In this document: piece by piece, positions 3,555-26,439 of the stretch
How the letters are laid out: each line of letters begins with the position of its first letter
Position numbering within the stretch: the stretch's first letter is position 1
Position numbers and translations under genes: made by a program
Notes under the pieces: generated by a model
The model's database searches: none
What the model was told of the DNA's origin: nothing
The model's input: the letters and a program-made list of their open reading frames with translations, nothing else
Source of the DNA: Sulfurospirillum halorespirans DSM 13726
Lineage (GTDB): Bacteria; Campylobacterota; Campylobacteria; Campylobacterales; Sulfurospirillaceae
Assembly: GCF_001723605.1 (NCBI RefSeq)
Contig: NZ_CP017111.1
Span: forward strand, 62,001 to 126,000
DNA: 64,000 bases
Direction of reading: 5' to 3'

Positions 3555-4057
3555 TGGATAATTGTATGAATTTAGAAACACTTAGGCATTCGGAAATTAT
3601 TGAGATTTATAGCAAATGCATACAAGAATTAAAAAAGAGAAATATCATTCGAACAAAGAATATCACTGGTGAAATAGGTGAATATATCGCTTTAGATTTT
3701 TATAATAATAATCCTAAACTACCAAACCTTCAATTTGCACCACCCAGTACAGAAAATATTGATGCAATTAGTAGGAAGGGTGAGCGTTATTCTATTAAAA
3801 CAGTGACTAATTATGGCTCAACGGGAGTTTTTTATGGGTTACCATCTCAAGGATCTCTTGAAATACCTATGCAGAAATTCGAATACGTAATTATTGTAAA
3901 ATTAAACGATAATTTTGAATTAGAATGTATTTTGGAATTAACTTGGAATGATTTTTTGGAAAATAAAAAATGGCATAGTCGTATGCAAGCTTGGAATTTA
4001 ACATACTCTAAAAAATTAAAAGAAAAAGCAAAATGTATTTACGAGAAAGTATTATAA
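3554..4057 (+). CDS. DUF6998-like, restriction-endonuclease-like protein
   Basis: A 167-residue protein, either from the GTG overlapping the AIPR stop or from ATG 3566. The middle reads R-T-K-N-I-T-G-E-I-G-E-Y (Glu40/Glu43), then N-I-D-A (Asp70), then R-Y-S-I-K-T (Lys82). This spacing is compatible with a small PD-(D/E)XK fold and resembles DUF6998 proteins, in which a short N-terminal helix pair precedes GEYGEY-like and YxIK motifs. As last gene of the defence operon it would supply a second nuclease-like subunit. The only acidic-x-Lys element is I-K, so the catalytic triad is uncertain. The gene converges on the methyltransferase with 21 bases between. Confidence 0.55.
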   Translation: MDNCMNLETLRHSEIIEIYSKCIQELKKRNIIRTKNITGEIGEYIALDFYNNNPKLPNLQFAPPSTENIDAISRKGERYSIKTVTNYGSTGVFYGLPSQGSLEIPMQKFEYVIIVKLNDNFELECILELTWNDFLENKKWHSRMQAWNLTYSKKLKEKAKCIYEKVL

Positions 4058-4078
4058 GTAATCTTGTATAAATGTATT

Positions 4079-5344
4079 CTATAAATTATCAATTAACTTT
4101 TTTATTGTTTTTGCAATCTGTTCTGCCATTTTAGGCGGTACAGCGTTTCCTATTTGCCTAAAAGCTGATGTTCTAGGCCCTTCAAAATAGAAATCGTCAG
4201 GAAAACTTTGCAACCTAGCTGCTTCTCTTATTGATAAAGAGCGTAATTGTTGAATATCTGGATGAATATAATAGTGTCCATCCATTGCCATATGGGCAAG
4301 AATAGTATGAGATGCTTTTTCATCAGCTTTAATTACGTTGAATCTATTTGTAAATGATTCAGTGTTCTTATGGGTAATAAGTTCAGGCCTTCTACTTGCT
4401 AATTCTTTATAGCAAAGTCTTTTTTTATAGAGATTCCATGCTAATATAGCTTCTTTGTATATTTCTCGATCTCGTTCATTATGAGGTCTTGTTTCATGTT
4501 GCGTTAATATATTAAAATTCTTTTCTCGTATATTCGCTTTTATTAAATAAGCATTCGTATTCTGAATGTATTCATTTTTACCCTCTATTCGTGTTCCTGG
4601 AGTTGTTGATGGTAGATCTTTTAAAAGGTCATTGACTAAATATTTATCAATATTAATTTTTTCAAAATCAGGATATTGATACTGCATATTTTTCTTTTTT
4701 TCCCAGCCCACAATAATGATTCTTCTGCGATTTTGTAATACTCCGAAGTCAGATGCAATGAGTTCTTGGGGTTCTTCAATATGATATCCAGCTTTATCGA
4801 TAGCAGTTTTTAGATCTTTAAAGTACTGCCCATCTCCAGCACTTCTTAAACCAGGAACATTTTCAAAAATAAACATTTTAGGCTTAAAAGTAGTTAGAAA
4901 TTTGACATAATATTTATACAAAAAATTTCTTGGATCAGCACTAACAGATTCCTTCATTCTAGCTCTTCCTATGATAGAATATGCTTGACATGGAGGGCCT
5001 CCAATAATAACATCAACATGTTGCAAATTTTTATTTTTGAGATTTGCTTTAATACGCGAAGTTATTTCAGGAAAAGTTGATTCTGAAATTTCTTTATTTA
5101 TTACATCATCGGAATGTAAAACATTCGCTTTATCCCACAGAGTTTCTGTTGATATTTTTTTTAAAAGGTAATCGTAATAGATATTGAGTTTTCCTTGTTG
5201 TTTTAAATTCCAATATGCAGTTCTAGTTTTTAATGTTTTGCATGCATAAGGATCCAATTCAACATGTCCTACGAAGGTAGCATTAGCTCGAAAAAAGCCT
5301 TCAGATAGGCCTCCAGCACCTGAAAATAAATCTAGAACAACCAC
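4079..5344 (-). CDS. dcm: DNA (cytosine-5-)-methyltransferase
   Basis: A 421-residue C5-cytosine methyltransferase starting at a GTG with AGAGG upstream. Motif I is VVLDLFSGAGGLSEGF at the N-terminus. Motif IV is GGPPCQ, with the catalytic Cys near residue 119 followed by the SIIGRAR loop. Motif VI is F-E-N-V-P-G near 160, motif VIII is QNRRR near 204, and motifs IX-X are ARLQSFPDDF and QIGNAVPP near the C-terminus. The target-recognition region lies around 225-340, and its specificity cannot be read. It faces the Z1/DUF4420/AIPR operon convergently and is presumably the self-marking enzyme for it. All catalytic motifs look intact. Confidence 0.93.
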   Translation of the reverse strand: MVVLDLFSGAGGLSEGFFRANATFVGHVELDPYACKTLKTRTAYWNLKQQGKLNIYYDYLLKKISTETLWDKANVLHSDDVINKEISESTFPEITSRIKANLKNKNLQHVDVIIGGPPCQAYSIIGRARMKESVSADPRNFLYKYYVKFLTTFKPKMFIFENVPGLRSAGDGQYFKDLKTAIDKAGYHIEEPQELIASDFGVLQNRRRIIIVGWEKKKNMQYQYPDFEKINIDKYLVNDLLKDLPSTTPGTRIEGKNEYIQNTNAYLIKANIREKNFNILTQHETRPHNERDREIYKEAILAWNLYKKRLCYKELASRRPELITHKNTESFTNRFNVIKADEKASHTILAHMAMDGHYYIHPDIQQLRSLSIREAARLQSFPDDFYFEGPRTSAFRQIGNAVPPKMAEQIAKTIKKLIDNL

Positions 5345-5440
5345 TTTGACCTCTTATATTTAGTTAGAACTGGATTATAACAGGGCTAATCTTAAGTATC
5401 GCCATGGTAGCATTATTAAAACTACCTTAAGGGTTAATAA

Positions 5441-5680
5441 ATGCTCGATTGCCCAATATGCTCATGGCCGTTAAAAGCCGGTAAAAAAATGGTTTATTGT
5501 TATGATGATAGTTGTGGATTTCATATCAATTACGCTCAAGAAGATCTGCTCAGAGATATAACCAAAAAAGAGGTAGAAGATCTGCTCATGGGTAAAACGA
5601 TCGAGGGATTAATTCACTTGGATATTGATTCTCCCAATTTCATTGCTTCAAAGGTCACTAAACTTGAACCGTACACGTAA
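5441..5680 (+). CDS. small zinc-ribbon protein, topoisomerase C-terminal-repeat-like
   Basis: A 79-residue protein with AAGGG 9 bases before the ATG. It has CPIC then C-Y-D-D-S-C-G-F, four cysteines of a small zinc ribbon, followed by I-T-K-K-E-V-E-D-L-L-M-G-K-T-I-x-G-L. That order resembles the C-terminal repeat of bacterial type IA topoisomerases, but here it is free-standing. Its last codons overlap the decayed start of a fic gene (TTG at 5664). The same overlap is kept at 9041-9106/9084, so zinc ribbon and fic were ancestrally one bicistron. It may therefore be a partner of Fic. Function unknown. Confidence 0.6.
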   Translation: MLDCPICSWPLKAGKKMVYCYDDSCGFHINYAQEDLLRDITKKEVEDLLMGKTIEGLIHLDIDSPNFIASKVTKLEPYT

Positions 5681-5800
5681 AAATGATTGCATTAAAATCC
5701 TCAATGAGTACTAAGATAAATTAATCCCAAATCAGTATCGTAATATTGAAAAAACAATTAGCTCTTGTGGCATAGATGAAATGCATTGTGATTATAAGTT
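5664..5800 (+). pseudogene. decayed 5' fragment of a second fic gene
   Basis: Read from TTG 5664, the sequence aligns codon by codon with the first 40 codons of the intact fic gene at 9084. It keeps NDCIKILNEY, then DKLIPNQYRNIEKTI, where the intact gene has DDCLKLLNKY and GKLISDQYRNIEATI. The codon corresponding to Gln17 is TAA at 5712-5714. The match fades after about 5800, where the convergent STAND gene ends at 5867. The fragment shows that a zinc-ribbon/fic pair once stood here. Nothing else is recognisable between 5800 and 5866. Confidence 0.75.
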
Positions 5801-5866
5801 TGTACTAATATAGTTAATGCTTTTTTATAGCATTTTATAATTTCAAGAAAAAGCATAGATTATAAA

Positions 5867-8449
5867 TTAATTTATCCCACAGCATTTTTTATATTTTTTA
5901 CCACTCCCGCAAGAGCAAGCATCATTCCGCCCTATTTTCTTTATATTGTTTTGTATCATTAATGAATGTGTATAGTGTATATTTTCTTGAGTTTGAATAG
6001 TATAAATATGGTTTGGGCCTAGTGTTGCATTCAAAATATTGAATGATTTAGTTAAATATTCAATTGATTCATTATATTCCCCGATATCGGCATTATATAC
6101 ACCCATTGTATTATAAGACATGGCAGTATCCAATGCATATGCCCCTTGTTGTATTTCTCGTATATTCATTGCTTTTTTAATCAAAGGGTATGCTTTTGAA
6201 TATTTTTTTGTATATCTATATAATTCACCTAAATTATTATACACAGAGGCTGTATCAATATGTTCTTCTCCCAAAGTTATTTCATATCTGTTCATAGCTT
6301 CTATGTAGAAAGGCAATGCTTTTTCTCTTTGATCCATTTTTGCATATATAAAACCTAAATCATTATAACTTTGCGCAATTAGAGGATTATCATCTTTAAA
6401 AAATTTCTTTCTTGAATTTAATGCTTTTTTAAAAAAATCTAATGCTTTATCATATTGTTGTTTTATTTGATAAGCTTCTGCAATGCCTTTATAGACAAAA
6501 CTTTCTTTAGGATTACTTTCGTACAATTCCATAATTTTCAATGCTTTAGAAAAATACTCAAAAGACTTATCGATCTGTCCAAAAGTTTTATATAGATGTC
6601 CTCTATTAGAATATTGTCCTGCTAACGCTAAAGAGTTTTCATCTAAATATTGTTCAGATATTAAAATAGATTCTTCCATATATTTCATTGCATTTGCATA
6701 ATCGCCAAGTCTTCTATATATTTCACCTAGTGAAGAGTAAACTTCTGCTGTATGCATTTTATGCAAATCATTTATCTCATTTGATATTTCTAGAGCTCTA
6801 TGGAAAACTTCTAAGGATAAGTTGATGTTACCTAGATGCAAATATACATTTCCAATTCGTTGAAAAAATATAAACACTTCTTGATTATATATATTTAGTA
6901 CTTTCAAAAACTTATATAATGATTCAAAAAATATTAATCTATTTTTGTGATCTAAACTGACTTCTATCTCTACACTGTGTTGAAGAATTAAATTATAAAA
7001 AGTTAGAGGTATTTTTATGTCTTCAAAGCTTGGTGTATGCGATGAAAACAAATACTCTTTATTAATTTGATGTAATTTATATCCCTTGAAAGATCCGTCA
7101 TTATATTTAATTAACCAACCTTTTTCAGATAAATAATTTAACATATCTTCAAAATCTGTTTCATCTTCTTTCTGCAAAATGAGTTTCAAATCTCGAAAAA
7201 GTATAAATGCTGAAGGGAAAATAGATATTTGTTTTAAAGCTAGGATCTCCTCATTCTCTAAACCATCAATAGTAAACAACTCATCTAAAAGCTTTTTAAA
7301 GCTTTCTTTTCTATTCATTTTAATTTTTGAAAACTCTCCATTTTGAAAATATTCTAGTATTTTTTCTGGAGTCAATGAATCTTTATTGGATAGAGTTTTA
7401 GCAATTTTTTCTATAAAAAAAGTATGATTATCTAAATAATTTAAAATTTGCTCCAACAAAGTATCTTCAATTTTATAAATTGAATTAAATAAATTTTTTG
7501 CATCATCAAGACTCATCACACTTAATTCGAAGCATTCGATTGTATCTATTGTTTCTCTAGATGTAAGCAGTAAAGTAAATCCATAGTCTTTTAATGATAA
7601 TAAAATATTAATACTATTAATATCTAAAATATTATCAATTACAAAAAGCTTTCTACCGTTTAATTTTCTAAGGGCAACTATAGCTTCTTTCAATATATCA
7701 GGCTCAATTTCAGATTTCAAATTCAAAATCAATTTAAGATCGGAGATCATGCTGGATATATCGTCAAATAAACCATAATAATCGTATGAATCTTTATTTT
7801 GAGTTACATAGTGATTTGCAAGTGATGATTTACCTATACCTCCGATACCATTAATTAATAATGTTTTGTTGGTTTTTAATATACTATCAATCTTTTTGAG
7901 TTCATTTTCTCGTCCAATGAATCCCGTTGTTTGACTTGAAGATTTGATACTTAGTTGTTTAGGGATAAAACTATCTAAATTTTTTGCGATCTCCGGATAA
8001 TATTTTGAGAAAAAATCTCTATTATCTTTATTATAGAAATCATTCAAGTATGATTCTATAGTTTCCCAACCCCAATATTCTACAATAATCTTTTCTGATG
8101 ATAATTTTTTTGCTTCATCCTGGATCACTGCTGATTGTTTATGCGTAGAAAAAAATAGATATTTACATTCTCTATTCTGGCAAGATTCTTGCATTTTTGT
8201 CTTGGCTTTATTCAATTCATTATTTATCTCTTCTATAATTATCTGATCTTTGATCGTTTCTTTGCTTTTATGTTTGGATTGAAAATAAATATCACCACTC
8301 GTACTATGCCCATCGATCCCAAATTGTGATTGACCTTTTTTGCCATACAACTGAAAAGTAAAAGCTGGATATAGTAGTTTTACAAAATCTCGAGAAAAAT
8401 TTTCAAATTGAATTTCATCTTTTATTATATTAAATCGATATCTTTCCAT
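5867..8449 (-). CDS. STAND NTPase: nuclease-like N-terminus, NB-ARC, TPR array, SEC-C tail
   Basis: An 860-residue protein. Residues 1-150 look like a Mrr/PD-(D/E)XK-type domain (G-I-D-G with Asp46, then I-Y-F-Q-S-K with Gln57 and Lys59). FIGRENEL at 177-184 opens an NB-ARC NTPase with Walker A GIGGIGKSS (201-209), Walker B KLFVIDNI (267-274) and LLLTSRE (293-299). A winged-helix-like segment follows near 430-480, then about 300 residues of TPRs of the kinesin-light-chain type (repeated YxxLGxxY and Y-x-x-A patterns). The last 21 residues are a SEC-C zinc motif with C-x-C and C-C (Cys845, 847, 856, 857). The layout of effector, NTPase switch and repeat sensor is that of prokaryotic NLR-like antiphage proteins. 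The role is inferred from architecture and island context. Confidence 0.85.
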   Translation of the reverse strand: MERYRFNIIKDEIQFENFSRDFVKLLYPAFTFQLYGKKGQSQFGIDGHSTSGDIYFQSKHKSKETIKDQIIIEEINNELNKAKTKMQESCQNRECKYLFFSTHKQSAVIQDEAKKLSSEKIIVEYWGWETIESYLNDFYNKDNRDFFSKYYPEIAKNLDSFIPKQLSIKSSSQTTGFIGRENELKKIDSILKTNKTLLINGIGGIGKSSLANHYVTQNKDSYDYYGLFDDISSMISDLKLILNLKSEIEPDILKEAIVALRKLNGRKLFVIDNILDINSINILLSLKDYGFTLLLTSRETIDTIECFELSVMSLDDAKNLFNSIYKIEDTLLEQILNYLDNHTFFIEKIAKTLSNKDSLTPEKILEYFQNGEFSKIKMNRKESFKKLLDELFTIDGLENEEILALKQISIFPSAFILFRDLKLILQKEDETDFEDMLNYLSEKGWLIKYNDGSFKGYKLHQINKEYLFSSHTPSFEDIKIPLTFYNLILQHSVEIEVSLDHKNRLIFFESLYKFLKVLNIYNQEVFIFFQRIGNVYLHLGNINLSLEVFHRALEISNEINDLHKMHTAEVYSSLGEIYRRLGDYANAMKYMEESILISEQYLDENSLALAGQYSNRGHLYKTFGQIDKSFEYFSKALKIMELYESNPKESFVYKGIAEAYQIKQQYDKALDFFKKALNSRKKFFKDDNPLIAQSYNDLGFIYAKMDQREKALPFYIEAMNRYEITLGEEHIDTASVYNNLGELYRYTKKYSKAYPLIKKAMNIREIQQGAYALDTAMSYNTMGVYNADIGEYNESIEYLTKSFNILNATLGPNHIYTIQTQENIHYTHSLMIQNNIKKIGRNDACSCGSGKKYKKCCGIN

Positions 8450-8565
8450 TTAATGCTTCCTGCAAATATAAGCTTTTGATGTTTATTGTATTCTTATTTT
8501 TATTATTTTATCAAGTAACTCTCTATAAATCTGCTCATTTATAATGCTCAAATGGAGACTTTTAG

Positions 8566-8682
8566 GGCGTCTTTTTTTGGGATACCCTCAAAACATTAGA
8601 CGCTCTTGAAGAAAATTACTTTAAAAACTTAACAGATAATAATTATGATAAAATTTATTTTGATACTAGTTACATGCAATAA
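8566..8682 (+). other. possible coding remnant between STAND gene and 8714 gene
   Basis: The 264 bases between the divergent STAND gene and the 8714 gene should hold the promoters of both. One frame after a TAG at 8563 reads 38 residues with protein-like composition (W-D-T-L-K-T-L-D-A-L-E-E-N-Y-F) and ends at TAA 8680. It has no start codon or ribosome site. It could be a decayed gene end or chance. Confidence 0.25.
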
Positions 8683-8713
8683 AATATTTTGAAATTATAA
8701 AGAAAGGTTTGAT

Positions 8714-8983
8714 ATGAATATAGTATATACAATTAATATTAAAGATGATAGTAATTATGAAATAATAATGACAGAAAAAAGTATTGAAGAATTTTGCGAT
8801 TTACCTATAAATGGTCAACTCCAATTAGGAAATTATAGAGTAACGAGGAGTGGCGATCAGATATCGTTTAATTATGGTAGCCAAGAGGGAACAATTTTAC
8901 CCTCAGGCACATATGGCGAAATTTGTAAAAAATTGCAAGAAGGTATAAAAAATTATAAACAAAATGAAAAAATTAATATTTAA
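8714..8983 (+). CDS. hypothetical protein, 89 aa
   Basis: A small acidic/polar protein with AGAAAGG 8 bases upstream of its ATG. It starts MNIVYTINIKDD, includes LPINGQLQLGNYRVTRSGDQ and ends lysine-rich. There is no signal peptide, membrane segment or cysteine. The alternating pattern suggests a small beta-rich fold. It stands alone, divergent from the STAND gene and before the fic module, inside the segment bracketed by the two zinc-ribbon/fic copies. I do not recognise a family. Confidence 0.5.
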   Translation: MNIVYTINIKDDSNYEIIMTEKSIEEFCDLPINGQLQLGNYRVTRSGDQISFNYGSQEGTILPSGTYGEICKKLQEGIKNYKQNEKINI

Positions 8984-9040
8984 ATATATTATTTAGTTTA
9001 GGACATAGAATTTTGAATTAGTATATCTAGCGTCTGAGTG

Positions 9041-9106
9041 GATATCTTCGTACCCAATTTCATCACTTCAAAGGTCGCCAGATTTGAATCCTACATGTAC
9101 AGATGA
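9041..9106 (+). pseudogene. 3' remnant of the zinc-ribbon gene upstream of fic
   Basis: In frame this reads D-I-F-V-P-N-F-I-T-S-K-V-A-R-F-E-S-Y and stops at TGA 9104. It matches the last codons of the intact zinc-ribbon gene (D-I-D-S-P-N-F-I-A-S-K-V-T-K-L-E-P-Y at 5622-5680). A TGA sits two codons before the match begins, so only the tail survives. With the fragment at 5664-5800 it forms an imperfect direct repeat, about 5622-5800 and 9041-9200, around the STAND gene. Confidence 0.7.
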
Positions 9107-9935
9107 TTGCCTCAAACTCCTCAATAAATACCAGGGTAAATTAATATCGGATCAATATCGAAATATAGAAGCCACGATAGGTAATCATGCTCTCGAGGGA
9201 ATGTTTGCAGATAAATACGATATTGATAGATTAGTACGTATGGCAAAAAATGATTTATCCTATGAAGAAGCACGCATTGAGGCTATCACAGAGATCAAAA
9301 ACATACGTGCGCAGATCCAAGATAAGAATACCGAACTGCCACTCTTTGATCAAGAACTATTAAGCTCGAATAAAGTCGAGGCCATAAATTTAAAAGATTT
9401 ATTTTTGAAAGAACAAAAGCTAACGCTTATTACAGAATTATCGATAAGAGATAAGCCAGTTACGGGGATCTTCGATTTTAACTACCTCCAGGCCATTCAT
9501 AAACGCCTCTTTGATGATGTCTATACGTTTGCCGGAAAAGATCGTTTTGAGATGGGATATCCTGGTGTATTTGTCAAAGGTGGGACACGCTTCACACCAG
9601 GGATCAAATTACCAGAAGTATCCAAAGCTCTTTTTGATGCGCTTCGAGATGATAATTTTTTTGTGAATTTGGATCACAAAGAATTTGCTCAGGAAATGGC
9701 GATCTTTTTTAATGGGTTAAACTTGCTGCATCCATTCCGTGAGGGAAATGGGCGAACGCAGCGTTTATTTATGGAAAGCCTCGCTCAAAATGCCGGTTAC
9801 ATTTTATCACTCCATCAAGTCTCTCAAGAGGCAATGATCAGAGCGTGTCAAAACGCTGCTAAAGGGTTTATCAATAGCCTCGAGATACTTATGAGGCATC
9901 ATCTTGAGCTGATAGAAACAAGCGATAGAAGCTAA
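9084..9935 (+). CDS. fic: Fic family protein with fused VbhA-like inhibitory segment
   Basis: A 283-residue Fic protein with the complete active loop HPFREGNGRTQR (His216 to Arg227), so AMP-transfer or related nucleotidyl transfer is expected. Before the Fic core, residues 30-75 read NHALEGM followed by a helical segment ending EEARIEAITEI. This resembles VbhA-type antitoxins with their (S/T)xxxE(G/N) helix fused to the toxin. Here Glu38-Gly39 are kept, but the Ser/Thr position is Asn34. The start is TTG 9084, supported by the conserved overlap with the zinc-ribbon tail. An ATG at codon 40 would remove the inhibitory helix. It is likely a self-inhibited toxin or interbacterial/phage-response enzyme. 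Confidence 0.85.
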   Translation: MNPTCTDDCLKLLNKYQGKLISDQYRNIEATIGNHALEGMFADKYDIDRLVRMAKNDLSYEEARIEAITEIKNIRAQIQDKNTELPLFDQELLSSNKVEAINLKDLFLKEQKLTLITELSIRDKPVTGIFDFNYLQAIHKRLFDDVYTFAGKDRFEMGYPGVFVKGGTRFTPGIKLPEVSKALFDALRDDNFFVNLDHKEFAQEMAIFFNGLNLLHPFREGNGRTQRLFMESLAQNAGYILSLHQVSQEAMIRACQNAAKGFINSLEILMRHHLELIETSDRS

Positions 9936-15376: not shown

Positions 15377-16159
15377 ATGGCCAAAAAATACTACTGGTTA
15401 AAGCTACCAAACAACTTTTTTGTTGACCCAAAGATCAAAAAACTTCGCCGTATCGCTGGCGGTGACACCTACGTCATTATCTTTCTAAAAATGATGTTGT
15501 TAGTCATTAATACTAACGGCATTCTTGAATTTGAAGGCATCGAAAAAACGTTGGAAGATGAGTTGTCTTTAAAGCTTGATGAGGATGAGAATAACGTGAA
15601 AGTTGTCCTAGCCTTTTTAAGTTCTAATGGAGAGCTAGAGGAAGTTTCAGATGAAGCCTTTTTATTGCAACGTGTTCCTGATCTTATCGGTAAGGAAGGC
15701 GATAGCGCCGAGAGAATGCGAAAGTTAAGAGAGCGTCAAAACGTAGGTGAAATACCATTAACGTCACATTGTGACGGCTATGTGACAAGAAGTGACACAG
15801 AGAAAGAGAAAGATATAGAGAAAGAGATAAAACCCTCTCTCTTTCTCTCTCCCACTCCAGAAAGAAAAGAGAGATTTGATTTAAAGTATCTCAATAAGTT
15901 CAGGGAAGAACTTATCACTACATGCCCTACTTTCGCGTTCAGCCTTCAAGGGAAGATGGGTTATTCGAGTAATCATCTTGGCTTTTGTATCAAGGGCGGT
16001 TACATCTTTGATCTCCACACCAATAAAATCGTTAAAAGCACTGAGAGCTTTGAGATTTGGCAATACCTCTACCACGTAAAAACTCATGTTCTTGATCTCG
16101 CACAAATACAAGCACAAAACCAACATAAGGAAGAAAACTATGCAAACAACAATCAGTGA
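15377..16159 (+). CDS. phage-type replisome organizer protein
   Basis: The ATG at 15377 is chosen for its AAAGGGA site and because the protein then begins MAKKYYWLKLPNNFF. The first 120 residues match replisome-organizer N-terminal domains: KYYWLKLP, F-x-D-P-K-I-K-K-L-R-R-I-A-G-G-D-T-Y, then hydrophobic I-F-L-K-M-M-L-L and N-G-I-L-E-F-E-G-I. The C-terminal half is charged and low-complexity (an EKEKDIEKEIK run) and then a DNA-binding-like segment. Such proteins bind origin DNA and load the host helicase. Its presence suggests the element replicates autonomously after excision. First gene of a ten-gene operon. Confidence 0.8.
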   Translation: MAKKYYWLKLPNNFFVDPKIKKLRRIAGGDTYVIIFLKMMLLVINTNGILEFEGIEKTLEDELSLKLDEDENNVKVVLAFLSSNGELEEVSDEAFLLQRVPDLIGKEGDSAERMRKLRERQNVGEIPLTSHCDGYVTRSDTEKEKDIEKEIKPSLFLSPTPERKERFDLKYLNKFREELITTCPTFAFSLQGKMGYSSNHLGFCIKGGYIFDLHTNKIVKSTESFEIWQYLYHVKTHVLDLAQIQAQNQHKEENYANNNQ

Positions 16160-16403
16160 AAACGCAGCCAAAATCCTAGCGGAACTTAACTCAAACCCTG
16201 TTTTTAAAAAGCTCATTTGTCTAAATCAAAAGCAAGCGGCCGAAGCAATCGGCGTTAGCTCAACGACTTTGAGTTTGTTACGCCGAGATGGTTTAGGTCC
16301 ACAATTTATCAAGGTGACACAGAGAGGTAAGAGAGCTAGAGTCCTTTATACAAAGTTAGAACTAGCCGAGTGGCTTTCTCGCAGCACCATTAAAACCATG
16401 TAA
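16140..16403 (+). CDS. helix-turn-helix (excisionase/AlpA-like) protein
   Basis: An 87-residue protein. The ATG at 16140 follows AAGGAAG and overlaps the end of the previous gene by 20 bases. L-N-Q-K-Q-A-A-E-A-I-G-V-S-S-T-T-L-S-L-L-R-R-D-G is a winged-helix/AlpA-type HTH. The following G-P-Q-F-I-K and R-V-L-Y-T-K-L-E-L-A-E-W-L are the usual continuation of excisionase-like regulators. It may regulate the operon or act in excision. Confidence 0.7.
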   Translation: MQTTISENAAKILAELNSNPVFKKLICLNQKQAAEAIGVSSTTLSLLRRDGLGPQFIKVTQRGKRARVLYTKLELAEWLSRSTIKTM

Positions 16404-16413
16404 GAGGTGTGTG

Positions 16414-16845
16414 ATGAAACATGAAAACACAGATATTTTATTAAGACGATTAGAAGAGCTTGAAAATAAGGTTGACAGGCTTACGCAATCAGAGATGTCA
16501 TCAGATCTTTTTCTTGAGTTTCGCTTCCTTTTTCAAGGTGAGCAGATCCTAACCGGCATTTGTGATACTACGGCTTGCAATGGAATTATCAAAAAGAAAT
16601 TTAGTGTTCTAAAGGCTCAATATGCACTTACGCGCAAAGGTCGTGCTGAGTTTGTCGTGTGCTTAGTAAGTAAAAATGATCGAGCTTCTACAATCAGCGA
16701 GTTTTATATCTCGGGTGAAAGCTTCATGAAAATCACTGGATTTATACCGAATGTGGAAGAATTCTTCGAGTTTGATAACTCGTTTAAAGCGTATTGCGCC
16801 TCGCTGGATCAAAGTGAAAAAAGGAGTGAGCAATGCGCTTCTTAG
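16414..16845 (+). CDS. hypothetical protein, 143 aa
   Basis: The ATG at 16414 is 6 bases after AAGAGG; a GTG at 16411 is possible. An N-terminal coiled coil (LLRRLEELENKVDRL) is followed by a compact globular region with no known motif. The end overlaps the next gene, whose ribosome site lies inside this one. Conserved position in a transfer operon is the only clue to its role. Confidence 0.5.
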   Translation: MKHENTDILLRRLEELENKVDRLTQSEMSSDLFLEFRFLFQGEQILTGICDTTACNGIIKKKFSVLKAQYALTRKGRAEFVVCLVSKNDRASTISEFYISGESFMKITGFIPNVEEFFEFDNSFKAYCASLDQSEKRSEQCAS

Positions 16846-19418: not shown

Positions 19419-19820
19419 ATGAAACCAGAAACAGCGGAACAAACATATCAATTTTTCGAGGAAGCGCAGATCGTGTTATCTACGCTCGAGGATCATATAG
19501 CGGCATTTAACCGTGCCTCTAAAGTTTTTGAAAAGACGACGAGTGATTTTGCAAAAGTCGAAAAGAGCATCGATGAAATCGGTGCAAAAATCGCAGAAAA
19601 AATTCAAGTGAAAACTATTCAAGCCTATTTATTAGGCTCGGTGGCAGAGCTTGAGAGTGTCACAAAAGACCTAAAAAGGCGTAAGCATGAAGAACGTTCT
19701 ACGTTGAAGATCGTTTTTGCTTCAACGTGCCTTTCTGTGCTTGTAACAAGCCTTGTTTTTATAGCGTTTGAAGCGGCCAATAAACCACTTCTCAATCTTG
19801 TCTATCAACTTGTTCATTAA
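19419..19820 (+). CDS. coiled-coil protein with C-terminal membrane anchor
   Basis: A 133-residue protein: about 95 residues of helical, heptad-like sequence (F-E-E-A-Q-I-V-L-S-T-L-E-D-H, KVEKSIDEIGAKIAEKI) and then one membrane segment (about 96-118). It sits 10 bases after the previous gene and has an AAGGAGTAAACA site. The architecture suits a tether between the membrane complex and a cytoplasmic partner such as the ParA encoded next. Function unknown. Confidence 0.55.
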   Translation: MKPETAEQTYQFFEEAQIVLSTLEDHIAAFNRASKVFEKTTSDFAKVEKSIDEIGAKIAEKIQVKTIQAYLLGSVAELESVTKDLKRRKHEERSTLKIVFASTCLSVLVTSLVFIAFEAANKPLLNLVYQLVH

Positions 19821-19830
19821 GGAGAACACC

Positions 19831-20610
19831 ATGAAAAATATCGCGATCATTAATACCAAAGGTGGCGTAGGAAAAAGTACCCTCGCCTTTCACGTTTTAC
19901 CGGCTATTTTAGCGGATAGAAATTTCGAGATTATCGAGATCGATAATAACAATAAAACAACGACGGCGTTTATGAATACAAAAATTTTAAAAGACAAGAT
20001 AACCTCGTTAAATATCGCAGAGGGAACGCAAAAGCTTGAGGAACTCGTTGTTACTAATATGCTCGATGAAGATAAAATCAGCGTTATTGATGCCGGCGGC
20101 GGTGATGATTCATTGAAAGTGATCCATTCGTTTATCGATCAAGATTTGATCGCCGATACGCTTTTTATCATCCCTTTTATGCCTGACTTTGTGCAGCTTA
20201 AAAATTTGGTCGATACGTATAACGTTTTACCATCCGAAGCAAAGATCCTCGTTGTGTTAAATAATGCGGATCTCAGTGATCCTGATCATCTTATGTTCGT
20301 CAAGGGTAACGAGGACTTTGAGATACCGGATATCTCATCTACCTTTACGCACTTTGCTGTTTGCCCTAAAAGCCCACTTTTTTCTTATGCCGCTTCACGC
20401 AATAAAGAGACGATCAAAGATCTTGCCCTACTCGCAAGCCAATTCACCCAAACAGAGATCCTGGACTACGCAAAGGTGAAAACCAAAGCAAATAGAGACT
20501 CCATGACGAAAATTTACCGCAATTGGAAAATCTCACGTAACGCAAAAGCGTATCTTGAGAGTGAAGCAATCGTGCAGCTAAAAAGCATCATTTTGGGAGA
20601 GCAAGCATGA
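19831..20610 (+). CDS. parA: ParA-family partition ATPase
   Basis: The ATG at 19831 follows AAGGAG by 6 bases. The 259-residue protein opens IAIINTKGGVGKST, the deviant Walker A with its signature lysine, and has I-E-I-D-N-N-N-K and V-I-D-A-G-G-G in place of the usual D-x-D-P and D-x-P motifs. There is no N-terminal HTH, so it is of the small (type Ib-like) class. It overlaps the next small gene by ATGA. It may segregate or position the excised element, or act in transfer as ParA-like proteins in some conjugation operons do. Confidence 0.85.
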   Translation: MKNIAIINTKGGVGKSTLAFHVLPAILADRNFEIIEIDNNNKTTTAFMNTKILKDKITSLNIAEGTQKLEELVVTNMLDEDKISVIDAGGGDDSLKVIHSFIDQDLIADTLFIIPFMPDFVQLKNLVDTYNVLPSEAKILVVLNNADLSDPDHLMFVKGNEDFEIPDISSTFTHFAVCPKSPLFSYAASRNKETIKDLALLASQFTQTEILDYAKVKTKANRDSMTKIYRNWKISRNAKAYLESEAIVQLKSIILGEQA

Positions 20611-20879
20611 AGTTTCAAGATTGGATTGCAAAGAACACGCCCTTAAAGCGTGTCTCTTCCCTGAAGCCTTATCGAGACGAAATTCAAAAGCTTGTGAGTT
20701 TGAATTACACACTAACGCAGATCACAGAGTATTTACGAGACGTAAGAGATATTGAGATATCAAGGCAAAGCGTGAAAAAGTTTTTGGCAAGCAAAACAGC
20801 TCAAGATAAACCGGTTAAAGCGGAAAAAAGTGAAACGTCGAAAGTGAGTTTGGAAGATAAGTTCAAGGGCTTTTTATAA
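20607..20879 (+). CDS. small DNA-binding partner of ParA (ParB-like candidate)
   Basis: A 90-residue basic protein overlapping parA by 4 bases (ATGA). I-Q-K-L-V-S-L-N-Y-T-L-T-Q-I-T-E-Y-L-R and I-S-R-Q-S-V-K-K-F-L form an HTH-like pair of helices, followed by a lysine-rich linker and a short amphipathic tail. Its size and place, between parA and an iterated DNA array that begins 5 bases after its stop, fit a centromere-binding protein of a type Ib partition system. Confidence 0.6.
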   Translation: MKFQDWIAKNTPLKRVSSLKPYRDEIQKLVSLNYTLTQITEYLRDVRDIEISRQSVKKFLASKTAQDKPVKAEKSETSKVSLEDKFKGFL

Positions 20880-20883
20880 GCCC

Positions 20884-21010
20884 GATGCAACCACATGTAA
20901 CCGTGAGGCAACCAATAGTAACCGAATGTAATCAAATGCAACTCAGCGTAACCGAGATGTAAGTCAAAGGTAACCTCGTGCTACCAAGAAGTAACCAAGA
21001 GGAAACCGAG
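20884..21010 (+). repeat. 12 helically phased repeats (GTAACC-type), candidate parS/oriT
   Basis: Twelve consecutive units of 9-11 bases with consensus close to A-x-GTAACC-x-AG fill exactly 127 bases (mean 10.6 per unit). Good units are ATGTAACCGTG, AGTAACCGA, CGTAACCGAG, AGGTAACCTCG and AAGTAACCAAG. Spacing of one helical turn puts every unit on one DNA face, as in iterated partition sites. The array lies between the ParA/small-protein pair and the relaxase. The following 65 bases up to 21075 hold GCCA-CGTTAA-TGGC, a small inverted repeat, and the relaxase ribosome site. Confidence 0.8.
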
Positions 21011-21075
21011 AAAACATTCACACCCAACGCCACGTTAATGGCACGAGGTGAAAAAAAGACGAAAAAGAGGCAAAA

Positions 21076-23931
21076 ATGCTTTCAATTGCAAATATGAATA
21101 GCGCACAAGCGGCTCATTATCATGCAAAAGATCAAAACTATTATCAGCAAGACAAAGAGACAAGCGTGTGGACTGGCAAAGGTGCTGAACGCTTAGGTTT
21201 GAGCGGAGAGATTGATATTAAACAGTTTGAGCGATTGTGTTACGGTATTCATCCGAGTGAAGAACGCACTCTTGTTGATATCAGTGAAAGAGCGGGAACG
21301 GATCTAACCTTTTCCGCTCCAAAATCCGCATCGATCTTATGTGAATTAGGTGATGAACGTACCAATCAACTCATACGTACAGCGCATGATCAAGCGGTGC
21401 AAACCACACTATCATTTGTAGAAGATCATTATGCTCAAACGAGAGAACAAAAGGACGGGCATAGAGAAGCAATTTCTACTGGTAATCTCATCATCGCTAA
21501 ATTTCAGCACGATACCAGCAGAGAGAATGACCCATCATTGCATACGCATTGCTTTATCGTCAATGCAACGCAAAAAGAGAACGGTGAATGGCGAGCGTTG
21601 CACAATGATCAACTCTTCACTCACAAAATGTTTTTAGGTCAGACGTATCGCAATGAATTGGCCAAAAATCTTAGAGAGCAAGGATTCGCTATTGAGATTA
21701 CGAATGCCAAAGAGGGATTCTTTGAAATTAAAGGTGTTTCCAAAGAGTTGATCAGTGAATTTTCACAACGTCGTGAGCAAGTCCTCAAGAAATACCAAGA
21801 GTTGAAAAAGCAATATCCTGGTCTCGAGGAAGAAAAGCTCAAAGAGATGGCAACAACCGGCAGCCGAAACGTGAAAGATAAAAACGCTGATCGCAGCGTT
21901 ATTAAATCTAACAATATCGAAAGAGCCAAAACTATTCTCGCCGGTAAAGATTTGATATATTTGAATCAGCTCAATAGCTCACATGCCAATCATGAACAGC
22001 AAAAATTAACGGCTAAAGATGCGGTGGATCTTTCGATTCGTATTCAAAGCGAAAAGACGAGTGTATTTAATCGTGAAGATGTGATGAAAAACGCAATGAA
22101 GCTTTCGTTAGGCGAGCATTCACTTAGTGCGATGCAGAGTGCTTTTGATGATCATGTCAATGAGCGATCGATTGTGCAACTGGATCAAAATGCTTACTCT
22201 ACACCAGAGCTCTTGCAAAAGGAGTTTGAGATTGTTGCAATGGCAAAAAACCGCACAGATCCTTTAATCTCTGCTCAACACGTGGAGCAATATCTAAGCC
22301 ATACGCCTTATAACCTCACAAAAGGACAACAAGAAGCGTATGCGCAGATTCTCACAAGCAATGAGTCTATTTCAGTGATTCAGGGCGATGCAGGTACGGG
22401 TAAAACGTTTATGCTTAAGGCCGTCAGGGAAACGCTTGAGAGTCAAAAGCAAAGTAGCAATCTCAGAGGAGTTGCATTTACCGGGAAAGCTAGTGAAGAG
22501 CTTGAGCGTGAAAGTGGTATTCCCTCTACGACACTGCACGCTTTTTTTGTGAATCCACCGGCAGAAAAGAATATGGTTTATGTTGTCGATGAGGCTTCAA
22601 TGGTCAGTTCGTTACAGATGCACCACTTATGTGAAGTTGCTAGAGAAAACCATTCAAAAATTGTGTTTATCGGTGATCAAAAGCAATTTCAATCTCTAGG
22701 TGCTGGCAATATGTTCTCGCAGCTTCAAAAGCAAAGTGATATTCGTATCGTTGAGATGACAGAAAATAAACGCGCGCAAACAGAATTGATGCGATCGCTT
22801 TATTCATCTATCAAGAGCAAAGATTTGGAAGAGGCGTTTGGCATTTTGGAAAAGCATCAACGACTTCATGAAACGACAGATCTCGAGAAGATAAAAAACG
22901 AATACCTCAAAGATCGTCATGATACGTTACTTCTCGTTGATACGAACGCGAATCGTAGAGCTTTAAACGAGTTAATCAGAGCAGATCTCGTCGCTCAGAA
23001 TGAAGTAACACAATCTCAACCGTTATCTATCAAAGAGGCAATAAATCTAAATGAGATTGAAAAGCACTACTCGAGCAATTACCAAGTAGGCCAAATTGTT
23101 GTCGCACAAAATGCGTTTCAAGGATTTAGCGCTGGGCAAGAAGCGATGATCACCACGATTGATCATCAAGCCAATACGATTACCGTTATGAAAGATGAGC
23201 AAAGGATCAAAATAGATCTAAGTAAAGCTCATGCTCAAGCAATTCAAACCTTTGCTATCAAAGAAAAAGCGTTTGGTATCGGCGACAAAATCGTTTTTAC
23301 AAAAAACAATCGAAACCTCAAGTTTAGAAATGGTGAGGCTGCTGTGATCCAAGCAATTCATGGGAATATCATCAAAGTGCAAAAGGGAAATAAAGAGTTG
23401 GCGTTTGATGCTTCCAAGTATCCTTATATCGATCATGGATACGTGATTACAGCGCATAAAAGCCAAGGTCAAACTACTAGTAGGGTTATCGCTTTCACGA
23501 ATGCACAAATGGCCAATTTAAACCGCTTCTACGTGCAAATTACCAGGGCAAAATGTGATGCCTTGATCTATACCAACAGCATAGCAACACTCAAGGAGAA
23601 TACACAAAAAACACAAATTAAAACAAGTACCCTAGATTATTTTAGGTCGGCAATGCAGCATGAGGCACATACAAATCATAACTACGAAAGGACATTCAAT
23701 GAGCAAAAAGAACGAAGAATATCAAGAGGATCAACTCTTTCAATACTGGGAGACTATTGCACAAAGTGCAAAATTGCACTCGCAGATCTTAGCCGACATC
23801 TTGGCTTATTTAAAAGAGATCGATCAGAGGCTTCAAGCACTCGAGGCAAAGATCAAATGAAAAATATCTTACTTAAAAATGAGCGCGAAAAAGCAGCTCA
23901 ATCCAGAACACAATCACGAGAAAGGAGATAG
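21076..23931 (+). CDS. traI: MobF-family conjugative relaxase/helicase
   Basis: A 951-residue protein. The relaxase domain (1-300) has neighbouring tyrosines (Tyr22, Tyr23), DLTFSAPKSASI and the three-histidine metal site HDTSRENDPSLHTHCF (His145, 156, 158). The helicase half has Walker A G-D-A-G-T-G-K-T-F near residue 440, V-V-D-E-A-S-M-V near 505, and RecD2-like motifs to Y-V-I-T-A-H-K-S-Q-G-Q-T. It would nick oriT and unwind the transferred strand. It is the decisive evidence that the island is conjugative or mobilizable. The last 75 residues are basic and also encode another ORF in a second frame. Confidence 0.93.
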   Translation: MLSIANMNSAQAAHYHAKDQNYYQQDKETSVWTGKGAERLGLSGEIDIKQFERLCYGIHPSEERTLVDISERAGTDLTFSAPKSASILCELGDERTNQLIRTAHDQAVQTTLSFVEDHYAQTREQKDGHREAISTGNLIIAKFQHDTSRENDPSLHTHCFIVNATQKENGEWRALHNDQLFTHKMFLGQTYRNELAKNLREQGFAIEITNAKEGFFEIKGVSKELISEFSQRREQVLKKYQELKKQYPGLEEEKLKEMATTGSRNVKDKNADRSVIKSNNIERAKTILAGKDLIYLNQLNSSHANHEQQKLTAKDAVDLSIRIQSEKTSVFNREDVMKNAMKLSLGEHSLSAMQSAFDDHVNERSIVQLDQNAYSTPELLQKEFEIVAMAKNRTDPLISAQHVEQYLSHTPYNLTKGQQEAYAQILTSNESISVIQGDAGTGKTFMLKAVRETLESQKQSSNLRGVAFTGKASEELERESGIPSTTLHAFFVNPPAEKNMVYVVDEASMVSSLQMHHLCEVARENHSKIVFIGDQKQFQSLGAGNMFSQLQKQSDIRIVEMTENKRAQTELMRSLYSSIKSKDLEEAFGILEKHQRLHETTDLEKIKNEYLKDRHDTLLLVDTNANRRALNELIRADLVAQNEVTQSQPLSIKEAINLNEIEKHYSSNYQVGQIVVAQNAFQGFSAGQEAMITTIDHQANTITVMKDEQRIKIDLSKAHAQAIQTFAIKEKAFGIGDKIVFTKNNRNLKFRNGEAAVIQAIHGNIIKVQKGNKELAFDASKYPYIDHGYVITAHKSQGQTTSRVIAFTNAQMANLNRFYVQITRAKCDALIYTNSIATLKENTQKTQIKTSTLDYFRSAMQHEAHTNHNYERTFNEQKERRISRGSTLSILGDYCTKCKIALADLSRHLGLFKRDRSEASSTRGKDQMKNILLKNEREKAAQSRTQSRERR
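23699..23860 (+). CDS. small coiled-coil protein overlapping the 3' end of the relaxase gene
   Basis: In the +2 frame relative to the relaxase, an ATG 8 bases after AAAGGA opens 53 codons: MSKKNEEYQEDQLFQYWE then helical heptads (LHSQILADILAYLKEIDQRLQALEAKIK). The composition is protein-like, unlike the basic, low-complexity relaxase tail in the same bases. It lies wholly within traI. Partner unknown; perhaps an accessory factor for relaxase or coupling protein. Confidence 0.5.
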   Translation: MSKKNEEYQEDQLFQYWETIAQSAKLHSQILADILAYLKEIDQRLQALEAKIK

Positions 23932-23933
23932 TA

Positions 23934-25505
23934 ATGTCAACGATTTTATTATGTTTATTGTTTAATGCCGGTGCTTTATGGGTGTTCCAAAAAAATCTTC
24001 CAATACCAGGCGGCGCAGTCTTTATTCTACTTTGTATTGCGGAGTATCTAGCTTGGGCATTTATCTTTAAAATGCAAGAGTCGATCAATGGACGTATTTT
24101 TGATGATAAGGCGTGGGTAATGGGAAGTTATCCCAATTACTATGAGCAAACGGAAGGCAATCGATGGACGGCTTCCCAACGAGTTAAAGAAATTATGTCA
24201 AAAGGTGAATTGTTTCTGGATCAGTTTCGATTTGATGATAGCGTTTTATATCGTTTATCAACGGTTTATGGGTTTGAAAAACGATTTAGTAATTTTGAGT
24301 GTTATACAGATCCGACAGACTTTACTCAGTCGGGGATTATATTTGGAGGTATGGGATCAGGAAAAACAGAATTTTACCACTCTACTATCGCTCAAGATAA
24401 GTTCGATCGTGTCATTGCCTATGATACAAAAGGTGATCTTGTTCAAAAGCATTATAGCTCGTTGAAAGATATCATCCTCAACCCGTATGATCAACGAAGT
24501 CATATTTGGAATCCTTTTGAGGAAGCTAAAACGAGTCCTTTTGTGACAGAGATCTTTTTAACCAATCTTTTCAATGCGTTAAGCGGCACGCAAAAAGACT
24601 TTTTTAGCGCAAGTTCCAAACAACGCTATATGAAGCTTTTTAACGATATTCTTTACAACAATAGTGAACTTTCATCGAATGAGCAGTTTGATCTTTTCAT
24701 TCAGCAGCTTAAAGAGTATTTCGAAGAAAATAAAAATCATGAAAGACGTAGTGAAGCAGATGTTGCCAGTACGATGCATTTGACGTTTGAATTTTTTGAT
24801 TATATGAACTTTTGTATTCAAAATGGCAGCCCTACTTTTACGATTAAAGAATATCTCTCTCGTAAGAGCTGCAAGCTCTTCTTACTCTCGAGGGATGATC
24901 AGCGCTCAAAACTTACCCCGTTTTTTACCGGCTTTTTGGCCGCTTTAACGGCTGTCATGTTAAGCCAAGAAGATCAAAAAACCTCTCTCACTCTCTTTGC
25001 TCTTGATGAGTACCTCTCTTTTGCTCAAAACCTCGATAGTGAAACGATCGAGGGGTTACATACCAGGATCAGAAGTAAAGGCGGTTGTTTGCTCCCTGGT
25101 GTACAATATTTCCCAGAGCAAAGCAACAAAGCGGACAGTGCTCAAGGGATTACGCAAAAGATGTTAAACTCAGCTGCATATTGGTTTTTATTTCAAGGTG
25201 TGGATGAATATACACTTAAAAAAATCAATAATACAATCGGTAAAGTACGTTATAGAAAAGAGCAGATTAGAGAGCAACTTACTGCTGATCCGTTGAATCG
25301 TAAAAATTACCAAATCGAAGAAGCGGATCTGCTAAATACCAGTTTGTTTCAATCGTTAGGCCAAAATTATGAGCATATCACGTTTGTGCCGTCGAAACGT
25401 ATTTTGTATAAAGGGTATACGCCAAGAGCGGAGTTGCCAAGTAAAAAAGCGAACTATGTTCAAAGTGAGAATATCGAAAAATATTATCGGGAGGGACGGG
25501 TATAG
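23934..25505 (+). CDS. traD: type IV coupling protein (TraD/TrwB-like)
   Basis: A 523-residue protein with two N-terminal membrane segments (about 4-20 and 27-46), Walker A GGMGSGKT (138-145) preceded by SGIIF, A-Y-D-T-K-G-D-L-V, and Walker B L-T-L-F-A-L-D-E-Y near 355. Later comes R-S-K-G-G-C-L-L-P-G-V-Q-Y-F, typical of VirD4/TrwB ATPases. It would deliver the relaxase-DNA complex to a transfer channel. It begins 2 bases after the relaxase stop (AAAGGAGAT site), so the two are co-translated. Last gene of the operon. Confidence 0.9.
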   Translation: MSTILLCLLFNAGALWVFQKNLPIPGGAVFILLCIAEYLAWAFIFKMQESINGRIFDDKAWVMGSYPNYYEQTEGNRWTASQRVKEIMSKGELFLDQFRFDDSVLYRLSTVYGFEKRFSNFECYTDPTDFTQSGIIFGGMGSGKTEFYHSTIAQDKFDRVIAYDTKGDLVQKHYSSLKDIILNPYDQRSHIWNPFEEAKTSPFVTEIFLTNLFNALSGTQKDFFSASSKQRYMKLFNDILYNNSELSSNEQFDLFIQQLKEYFEENKNHERRSEADVASTMHLTFEFFDYMNFCIQNGSPTFTIKEYLSRKSCKLFLLSRDDQRSKLTPFFTGFLAALTAVMLSQEDQKTSLTLFALDEYLSFAQNLDSETIEGLHTRIRSKGGCLLPGVQYFPEQSNKADSAQGITQKMLNSAAYWFLFQGVDEYTLKKINNTIGKVRYRKEQIREQLTADPLNRKNYQIEEADLLNTSLFQSLGQNYEHITFVPSKRILYKGYTPRAELPSKKANYVQSENIEKYYREGRV

Positions 25506-25509
25506 CTTC

Positions 25510-25535
25510 AAGATAGGGGAATTCCCCTATCTTTT
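25510..25535. terminator. bidirectional terminator, transfer operon versus toxin-antitoxin operon
   Basis: AAGATAGGGG and CCCCTATCTT around AATT form a perfect 24-base palindrome (25510-25533) followed by T residues. It lies 4 bases after the coupling-protein stop and touches the end of the convergent antitoxin gene, so it can stop transcription from both sides. Confidence 0.85.
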
Positions 25536-25818
25536 AAACAAGAGCAATCGTTAGTTTTTTGCCTAGAGCTTGGCTAGCTGAAATTAATGTTGTAAGTGTT
25601 AATGATTCGTTTGAGGGGCTTAATAATCGATCAACCGCAGCCCTGCTTGTGTGCATCATTTGTGCCAGTTTTGTTTTAGAAATTTTTTGAACTTTCATTT
25701 CTTGTTCTAATTGATAAGCAATGATTCTTTTAATAGCAGCATCATTCACTTCCTCATAGATACCTTCTTCTCTCAAAAATTCATCAAAATCACTTTTCAT
25801 ATTTGGTTGTAGTTTCAT
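25534..25818 (-). CDS. higA: HTH antitoxin (HigA/XRE family)
   Basis: A 94-residue protein with a central XRE HTH: K-I-S-K-T-K-L-A-Q-M-M-H-T-S-R-A-A-V-D-R-L-L, preceded by an N-terminal helical region (EEVNDAAIKRIIAYQLEQEM). It overlaps the toxin gene by 4 bases. Toxin-first order is characteristic of HigBA. It would neutralise the toxin and repress the pair through the operator near 26159-26176. Confidence 0.85.
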   Translation of the reverse strand: MKLQPNMKSDFDEFLREEGIYEEVNDAAIKRIIAYQLEQEMKVQKISKTKLAQMMHTSRAAVDRLLSPSNESLTLTTLISASQALGKKLTIALV

Positions 25819-26150
25819 TTTATATCCTTTAATCTACTTAAAGCTAAATCAAGATCGCTTTTTTCTGTCTTTTGCGTTTTTTTAATAAATGCATGCAGCA
25901 GTACCATGTATTCGTCGATAACAGCGAATATAACTCTTGCAATTCTTTTGTCTGATATATTGCTTCTCACTTCAAAAAGCTTTTTACCGAGACCCTTACA
26001 TGTAGGCATACCTATTGGCCATCCATACTCTACCGTTTTAATATCCTCACCAATGATTTTTCGATCATCTTTGGCAAGAGATAATAGCCATTCTCTAACG
26101 GGTTTATTTCCGTTACTTGTTTCATAAAATATAGAAGAGATCTTTTTCAT
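25815..26150 (-). CDS. higB: RelE/HigB-family toxin (phage Gp49-like)
   Basis: The start at 26150 is chosen because MKKISSIFYETSNGNKPVREWLLSL is the family's usual N-terminus. The 111-residue protein continues with F-E-V-R-S-N-I-S-D-K-R-I-A-R-V-I-F-A and L-L-H-A-F-I-K-K-T-Q-K-T, the common Gp49-like/HigB pattern, including the basic active-site surface of ribosome-dependent mRNases. It lies at the right edge of the island beside the tRNA cluster, where an addiction pair would stabilise the element. The promoter position implies a leaderless mRNA. Confidence 0.88.
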   Translation of the reverse strand: MKKISSIFYETSNGNKPVREWLLSLAKDDRKIIGEDIKTVEYGWPIGMPTCKGLGKKLFEVRSNISDKRIARVIFAVIDEYMVLLHAFIKKTQKTEKSDLDLALSRLKDIK

Positions 26151-26156
26151 AACGAA

Positions 26157-26186
26157 ATTGTACCAAAAATGATACATAAAGGTCAA
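26157..26186 (-). promoter_or_regulatory. promoter and operator of the toxin-antitoxin operon
   Basis: On the reverse strand: -35 TTGACC (26186-26181), 18-base spacer, -10 TACAAT (26162-26157). The start point would fall at about 26150, on the first base of the toxin ATG. A dyad TGTATCA-TTTT-TGGTACA (26176-26159; six of seven bases pair) covers the -10 and is the likely HigA operator. The remaining 26187-26351 shows no gene. Confidence 0.75.
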
Positions 26187-26351
26187 TAGTTTAATTAGCT
26201 ATTGGATGGATTGCAATAGATTTTTTAAGAGAAATATTGAATTGCCAAATTGGCTTTGTTGGAAATAGGTTGGAAAGAAGCTTTTTCGATTTTTCTTAAA
26301 TTGCTTTAGAATATCGATAAAATGGGAGTTTTGAAGGAATTTAAGGATTGG

Positions 26352-26439
26352 TGGCCGGGAGAGAGGGATTTGAACCCCCGGAGGTATAACCCTCAACGGT
26401 TTTCAAGACCGCCGCATTAAGCCGCTCTGCCATCTCCCG
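26352..26439 (-). tRNA. tRNA-Ser (anticodon TGA)
   Basis: Acceptor CGGGAGA pairs with TCTCCCG. The anticodon loop CTTGAAA gives TGA. There is a long variable arm, as expected for serine, the TTCAAAT T-loop and an encoded CCA. It is the last tRNA of the cluster and lies next to the island, so its 3' end is the natural integration-site candidate. Confidence 0.95.

Follow-up and report, generated by a model that had tools for sequence, protein, structure and literature searches.

What is the role of a run of short, helically phased repeats located between a small ParA operon and the gene of a conjugative relaxase? The question arises in the window, a 64,000-nucleotide stretch of DNA (G000:C1:62001-126000) from a 3.03 Mb genome in a single contig. 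The features that bear on it are as follows.

19419-19820, plus strand: StbC-like protein of 133 residues with one C-terminal hydrophobic segment and a coiled coil seen by eye (likeness of topology only).
19831-20610, plus strand: StbB-like ATPase of the ParA/MinD type, 259 residues, Walker A motif KGGVGKS (profile alignment).
20607-20879, plus strand: StbA-like protein of 90 residues with a predicted tri-helical HTH (profile alignment and two-sequence AF2 model).
20884-21010, plus strand: twelve phased GTAACC-type units at steps of 10-11 bp, the proposed stbDR-like sites of the 90-residue protein.
21019-21042, minus strand: predicted nic (motif and layout), with cleavage expected between 21020 and 21019 and the hairpin GCCATTAACGTGGC on its 5' side.
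21076-23931, plus strand: MobF/TraI-type relaxase-helicase, 951 residues (NF041492 MobF above its cut-off; PF08751 TrwC).
23934-25505, plus strand: type IV coupling protein of the TrwB/TraD type (PF10412, E 2.5e-33).
26351-26371, plus strand: right end of the element, a 21-bp direct repeat at the 3' end of tRNA-Ser (repeat match).

Twelve hexamers within two mismatches of GTAACC start on the plus strand at 20887, 20897, 20908, 20918, 20928, 20938, 20948, 20959, 20970, 20980, 20991, and 21001/21002, separated by 10 or 11 bp with a mean of 10.4. Nine matches with at most one mismatch fall within the 127 bp of the array, compared with at most three such matches in any 127-bp stretch of the minus strand of the window. 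Pairs of 4-mers at helical lags number 47 in the array, whereas 500 dinucleotide shuffles averaged 7.7 and never exceeded 21; this is the top score of the 64-kb window when scanned in 140-nt windows with 20-nt steps, the runner-up elsewhere reaching 40. Furthermore, the phase coherence (R = 0.965 at a 10.4-bp repeat) was attained by none of 20000 random sets of 8-13 bp spacings, and the three pairs of G[TC]AACC separated by 4-5 bases all lie in the array, with none elsewhere in the 31.7-kb element. The array is real and helically phased. The hexamer starts, the shuffles, and the coherence confirm the 12 GTAACC-type phased repeats described at 20884-21010 by the first-pass annotation; its phasing holds, but its unit size of 9-11 bases with a mean of 10.6, obtained by dividing 127 bases by 12, gives way to the spacing listed above. 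DNA that is intrinsically bent, or of low complexity by chance, and lacks a cognate protein would be an extremely improbable source of such a structure. Helical phasing is a feature of bent DNA as well, but the units are not A-tracts, none of the 500 shuffles reached the array score, and the unit sequence shifts together with the adjacent gene. Two terminator-like stems are also visible inside the array on the minus strand.

The array begins 5 bases 3' of the end of the 90-residue gene (20879), and the ATG of this gene overlaps the ParA stop codon (20607-20610); these coordinates agree with the earlier description of an array 5 bases past a small HTH-like gene coupled to ParA. On the other side, the array ends approximately 70 bp ahead of the relaxase start codon. 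The relaxase matches TIGR02760 TraI with an E-value of 3.7e-119, yet it scores under the cut-off of that family. A second copy of the 21-bp repeat is situated 31.7 kb off at G000:C1:56690, beside a tyrosine integrase, and the copies at both ends thereby define a 31.7-kb integrated element. Because no VirB4/TraC-kind ATPase was found in the genome with two profiles, the element looks mobilizable rather than self-transmissible, and its transfer would need a helper. A replisome-organiser-like gene is present in the element (family match). The left part of the element (window 78-9935) has a defence-like content, with MzaD/MzaE-like proteins, a methyl-directed restriction enzyme, a DNA cytosine methylase, a TPR protein, and a Fic-type protein. 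At the right end (25534-26186, minus strand), a small XRE-like and HigB/RelE-like pair, named by eye, is probably a toxin-antitoxin system.

The nature of the two coupled proteins was approached by profile comparison. Type Ib ParBs adopt the ribbon-helix-helix fold, and VirC2 is a ribbon-helix-helix protein too; for the 90-residue protein, no ribbon-helix-helix family match was obtained. In the comparison of the small family (19 rows) with StbA (6 rows: R388, NAH7 TraD, and four others), hhalign gave a probability of 87.8, which is below the customary 95, with an E-value of 3.3e-6 over 67 columns, and 200 column shuffles of the same comparison gave probabilities of at most 1.3. The alignment points to a relationship between the 90-residue protein and the DNA-binding (HTH) domain of StbA. 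Against the PDB, the sequence had no match and the small-family profile had 13 weak matches, StbA not among them. The two-sequence AF2 model contains the helices 20-31, 36-46, and 53-66 with a mean pLDDT of 70.6, and is read with moderate confidence as an HTH, in which residues 53-66 or so are plausibly the recognition helix; a single-sequence model, which consisted of one long helix, was discarded. Foldseek and VIA searches with the two-sequence model returned generic HTH domains, the best of which (Z 6.7) was a small terminase, and the StbA structure 7pc1 was absent from both the fold and the profile matches. The C-terminal tail of the protein is conserved in near relatives.

In the case of the ATPase, the ParA profile (8 rows) aligned with StbB (5 rows) at a probability of 98.6 and an E-value of 6.8e-16 over 226 columns. 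The ParA profile gave 101 bits for the ParA of pHCD, 41 for R388 StbB, 35 for R46 StbB, 34 for NAH7 StbB, 31 for the Soj-like ParA of the same genome, 30 for a Pseudomonas StbB, 26 for a Morganella StbB-like protein, 26 for NAH7 ParA, and 6 for SopA. The alignments cover 172-221 columns in the StbB-type proteins, 54 in the Soj-like ParA, 47 in NAH7 ParA, and 140 in another ParA-family protein of the same genome. Kinship with StbB over partition ParA is slightly favoured by these profiles; the Soj-like ParA (31 bits, hhalign probability 96.5) ranks above two of the five StbB-type proteins and below the other three; against the NCBIfam StbB model, the ATPase scored 27.7 bits and did not reach the cut-off of 200. 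The 133-residue protein resembles StbC in size and membrane topology only: its hydrophobic peak starts at residue 98, compared with residue 98 of 128 in R388 StbC and residue 103 of 122 in R46 StbC.

These comparisons bear on the type Ib partition locus that was originally proposed. A ParA, a small DNA-binding protein, and an iterated site beside the relaxase are indeed present, but the 90-residue protein matches the HTH domain of StbA by profile and has no ribbon-helix-helix family match, so that its identity as a type Ib ParB was rejected on the missing match, the helical HTH model, and the StbA-like profile. The broader reading, a classical type I partition locus (ParA, small ParB, and iterated centromere) that lies beside oriT and serves only the segregation of the excised element, is quite unlikely. 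It would account for the ParA-type ATPase, the coupled small DNA-binding protein, and the adjoining iterated sites, the replisome-organiser-like gene would permit replication of an excised circle, and the ATPase profile scores the Soj-like ParA too. However, the HTH protein is of the StbA type, the StbB alignments are the long ones whereas those of the Soj-like and NAH7 ParAs are short, and in one relative (G065) the nic-like site keeps with the array, approximately 16 kb from the relaxase gene.

The predicted nic site lies on the minus strand past the array, where the hairpin GCCATTAACGTGGC is followed by GTTGGGTGT^G, and the bases after GTTGGGTGT are GA. The corresponding layout in the F oriT is GCAAAAACTTGTTTTTGC-GTGGGGTGT-GG, and the predicted cut was placed by analogy with the cut position in F. 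A feature of MOBF oriTs is thus present, namely a hairpin immediately 5' of a sequence resembling GGGTGT^G of F. The nic-like site is outside the array, on its relaxase side; the alternative suggestion of the first-pass annotation, that the array might itself be oriT, therefore holds insofar as a predicted oriT adjoins it, but the nic-like site (21019/21020, minus strand) is just beyond its end. With nic predicted on this side, the locus resembles an oriT-leading-region module of the Stb or TraK-TraL kind more than a type Ib locus.

Scanning for GGTGT preceded by a hairpin gave a site within approximately 150 bp of the array in 12 loci with differing stems (the window, L015-L019, L020, L021, L022, L023, L062, and L080), and none beside the array in L024, L060, L066, L070, L074, L076, L077, and L079; in L077, GTGGGGTGT was spotted by eye and had been missed by the scan. 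The hairpin folded better than shuffles in three of six loci (L022, z -3.65; L023, -2.84; L021, -2.09) and no better in the other three (the window, z -1.15; L062, -0.89; L020, 0.09). In G065 (L021), the array, the nic-like site, and the operon stay together, and the relaxase gene is approximately 16 kb away. A ParA-like ATPase with a DNA-binding partner and a site next to the nick also calls to mind the VirC1/VirC2-overdrive system, VirC1 being so described in excerpts of PMC4949242. An enhancer of this type, acting only in relaxosome assembly and docking to the coupling protein, is an unlikely but not negligible reading, as the partner in the window is StbA-like and VirC2 is a ribbon-helix-helix protein.

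With the own genome counted each time, 12 of 150 genomes contain a match to the 90-residue protein, 45 of 397 across the phylum a match to its profile, and 27 of 398 across the order a match to the relaxase. Sulfurospirillum diekertiae JPD-1 was the only named match among GTDB contigs. At E<=0.01, 72,556 plasmids yielded no relative of the protein, and viral contigs gave no match with the window protein, the L074 protein, or the ParA as query. Along these relatives the array unit changes from GTAACC in the window to GCNACC (L017), GTGAAC (L020), TCAAGAA (L021), GCTCAC (L070), TTGAGAA (L080), TTGTCAA (L077), and GTCAAA (L079). The units were traced with the array core supplied and steps restricted to 9-12 or 19-23, so the mean spacings from this tracing are partly built in; the helical-lag scores are not. 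Phase kept while sequence changes, which had been put forward as a check, was observed in most near relatives (GCNACC, GTGAAC, TCAAGAA, and TTGAGAA).

A phased array at z>=3.8, a cut picked after the scores were seen, occurs in the 1 kb ahead of the relaxase in 15 of the 18 loci that have the small gene and in 3 of 12 loci where none was called; L021, L024, and L025 (not entered) and L075 (no upstream sequence) were left out of this table. Of the three loci with an array in the latter group, L022 has an interrupted gene, L067 shows a fragment of it, and in L071 the gene falls past the end of the contig. Three of the 18 have no such array within that distance: L020, whose array (z 11.3) is located further upstream than 1 kb; L060, where the operon genes are present with longer inverted repeats (9392-9531, by eye) in place of the phased array; and L073, in which a weak homologue is situated 5 kb downstream of the relaxase without a phased array. 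The arrays of L022 and L023 are weak. More distant held-out homologues show a clear array (z>=5) in 4 of 14 cases, among them two of the three that have a ParA-like Walker motif nearby. In L115 and L119 (approximately 1300-1500), phased repeats (z 6.6 and 5.6) lie just 5' of a distant homologue of the small protein, and no ParA motif was seen within 1.5 kb. Meanwhile, the Caminibacter pacificus plasmid (L027, 5500-6000) carries a ParA whose CopG-like partner was recognised by eye; its dense ATATAATTT array, in steps of approximately 20 bp, is either a relative with another spacing or a genuine partition site.

The L115 and L119 arrays would suit an operator array, through which the 90-residue protein would chiefly repress the relaxase operon, the ATPase being incidental, as would the short distance between the array end and the relaxase start codon; according to excerpts of PMC12421886, the StbA homologue of NAH7 covers a promoter. 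This reading is distinctly unlikely, since 12 phased units exceed the usual operator, the L021 array is at the small-ParA operon and distant from the relaxase, and no sigma-70-like promoter was seen in 20850-21100, the latter being a weak test in this phylum.

Natural variation among six Sulfurospirillum elements bears on the relationship between protein and array. Two types exist, type A in the window and L015 and type B in L016-L019 (L014 and L018 are one genome). With gaps counted as differences, the arrays are 95-100% identical inside types and 61-64% across types, and codons 45-68 of the small gene are 92-99% identical inside types and 65-72% across. No such split appears over all 15 pairs in ParA (81-89%), nic with its hairpin (91-100%), or the relaxase (90-93%), nor in codons 1-44 of the small gene (76-90%), and the StbC-like ORF has a deviant allele in L017 alone (57-60%). 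When gap columns are omitted, sites fixed for the A/B split make up 62 of the 89 variable sites in codons 45-90 plus the array (33 of 40 in the array and 29 of 49 in the codons), compared with 13 of 735 elsewhere. A Fisher p value on such counts takes the sites as independent and is purely descriptive. Among the 15 possible two-versus-four splits, A/B is the only one with fixed array sites, and the others have at most one in codons 45-90. In the first 76 residues of the protein, 15 positions differ cleanly between types (36, 37, 40, 45, 48, 49, 55, 57, 61, 62, 65, 66, 67, 69, and 71), and six of these are inside helix 53-66, the predicted recognition helix. The type B array is shorter by exactly one 11-bp unit, whereby the phase is preserved. 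In L015 (G015), a frameshift in the small gene (7931-8185) replaces the C-terminal tail SLEDKFKGFL, and the array is identical to that of the window. The two-type pattern is a single event among six genomes. Since the two types are shared by the array and the latter half of the small gene but not by ParA, nic, and the relaxase, the co-segregation is strong natural evidence, at the level of sequence, that the 90-residue protein reads the array; such co-variation is the outcome that direct recognition would predict.

Among known systems, the closest likeness is with StbABC of R388 (IncW, MOBF11), which combines a StbA-type HTH protein, a ParA-like ATPase, and a third protein with a C-terminal membrane segment, as well as direct repeats that recur approximately every 11 bp 3' of nic, on the leading side, and a MobF relaxase. 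The order from nic is repeats, A, B, and C in both. In R388, the hairpin and nic occupy 16149-16173, and the repeats 16300-16333 and 16385-16429 run in 11-bp steps with one unfilled. In contrast, the window operon runs toward oriT (C-B-A) with the repeats downstream of it. The array is consequently outside its own promoter, unlike in R388, and a location at the promoter of its own operon was ruled out; repeats at the stb promoter were treated as a non-defining feature of R388. Compared with R388, the window further has a classical KGGVGKS Walker A, a TraI-like relaxase, an F-like nic motif, a unit unlike TTGCATCAT, and a spacing that mixes 10 and 11, and it belongs to an integrated element of Campylobacterota. 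According to excerpts of PMC3098194, StbA of R388 binds the stbDRs adjoining oriT, is required for stability, and restrains transfer, and StbB is required for transfer if StbA is present.

RP4 TraK/TraL and pTF-FC2 MobC/MobD (MOBP), known here by description, are accompanied by a P-type relaxase. The same excerpts of PMC3098194 treat these pairs as relatives of StbA/StbB, with the classical KGGxxK[TS] in TraL and MobD, and place the binding of RP4 TraK between nic and the traK gene. In NAH7 TraDEF, the StbA homologue TraD likewise binds the oriT region, where it leaves footprints and covers a promoter (excerpts of PMC12421886), but the stb-type operon is divergent from the MOB genes, and the host is a conjugative plasmid with a separate ParAB. 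Helicobacter cetorum pHCD has the top outside ATPase of those compared and consecutive genes for a small protein, ParA, and a membrane protein, divergent from mobC/relaxase; its relaxase, however, is MOBP, its small protein was not matched by the small-family HMM, and no phased array was seen by eye in the intergenic stretch. In the literature, mainly the freely accessible part, no account of the present system and no paper on a conjugative relaxase of Sulfurospirillum was found, and none of the papers listed on StbB, partition, or relaxase joins StbB with Campylobacter.

Because of the functions of StbA and StbB in R388 and the binding of the NAH7 StbA homologue at oriT, the locus is best explained, and with good probability, as a StbABC-type positioning and relaxosome-accessory system whose repeats lie in the oriT leading region of an integrated mobile element. 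We infer that the 90-residue HTH protein would occupy neighbouring phased repeats along a single face of the DNA, forming a nucleoprotein patch over the first 130 bp or so of the leading region, directly 3' of the predicted nic. The StbB-like ATPase may act on this patch, perhaps together with the membrane-anchored StbC-like protein, so that the excised circle or the relaxosome would be positioned, and even distribution in the cell would be balanced against delivery to a transfer apparatus. A segregation role, as in R388, is possible by analogy. How StbB and StbA of R388 balance inheritance against transfer was called unresolved in 2016 (excerpts of PMC4949242).

Compared with the known Stb systems, the TraI-type relaxase, the operon directed toward oriT, and the apparently swappable specificity cassette are new. 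Together, the array and the half of the 90-residue protein that reads DNA would constitute an exchangeable specificity module. As a tentative generalization, somewhat less probable than its converse, the oriT-proximal phased sites and the recognition half of the StbA-like reader may recombine as one cassette in Campylobacterota elements, with the motor, nic, and relaxase held in common. Many natural pairs of protein and array, together with two allelic types in otherwise similar elements, make both specificity and function testable by swapping. With this assignment, the Stb type would reach TraI-like relaxases and Campylobacterota, for which a testable oriT prediction would follow. If the label is truly swappable, a recognition code would emerge from the many natural pairs of protein and array, and differently labelled elements could be handled independently within one cell.
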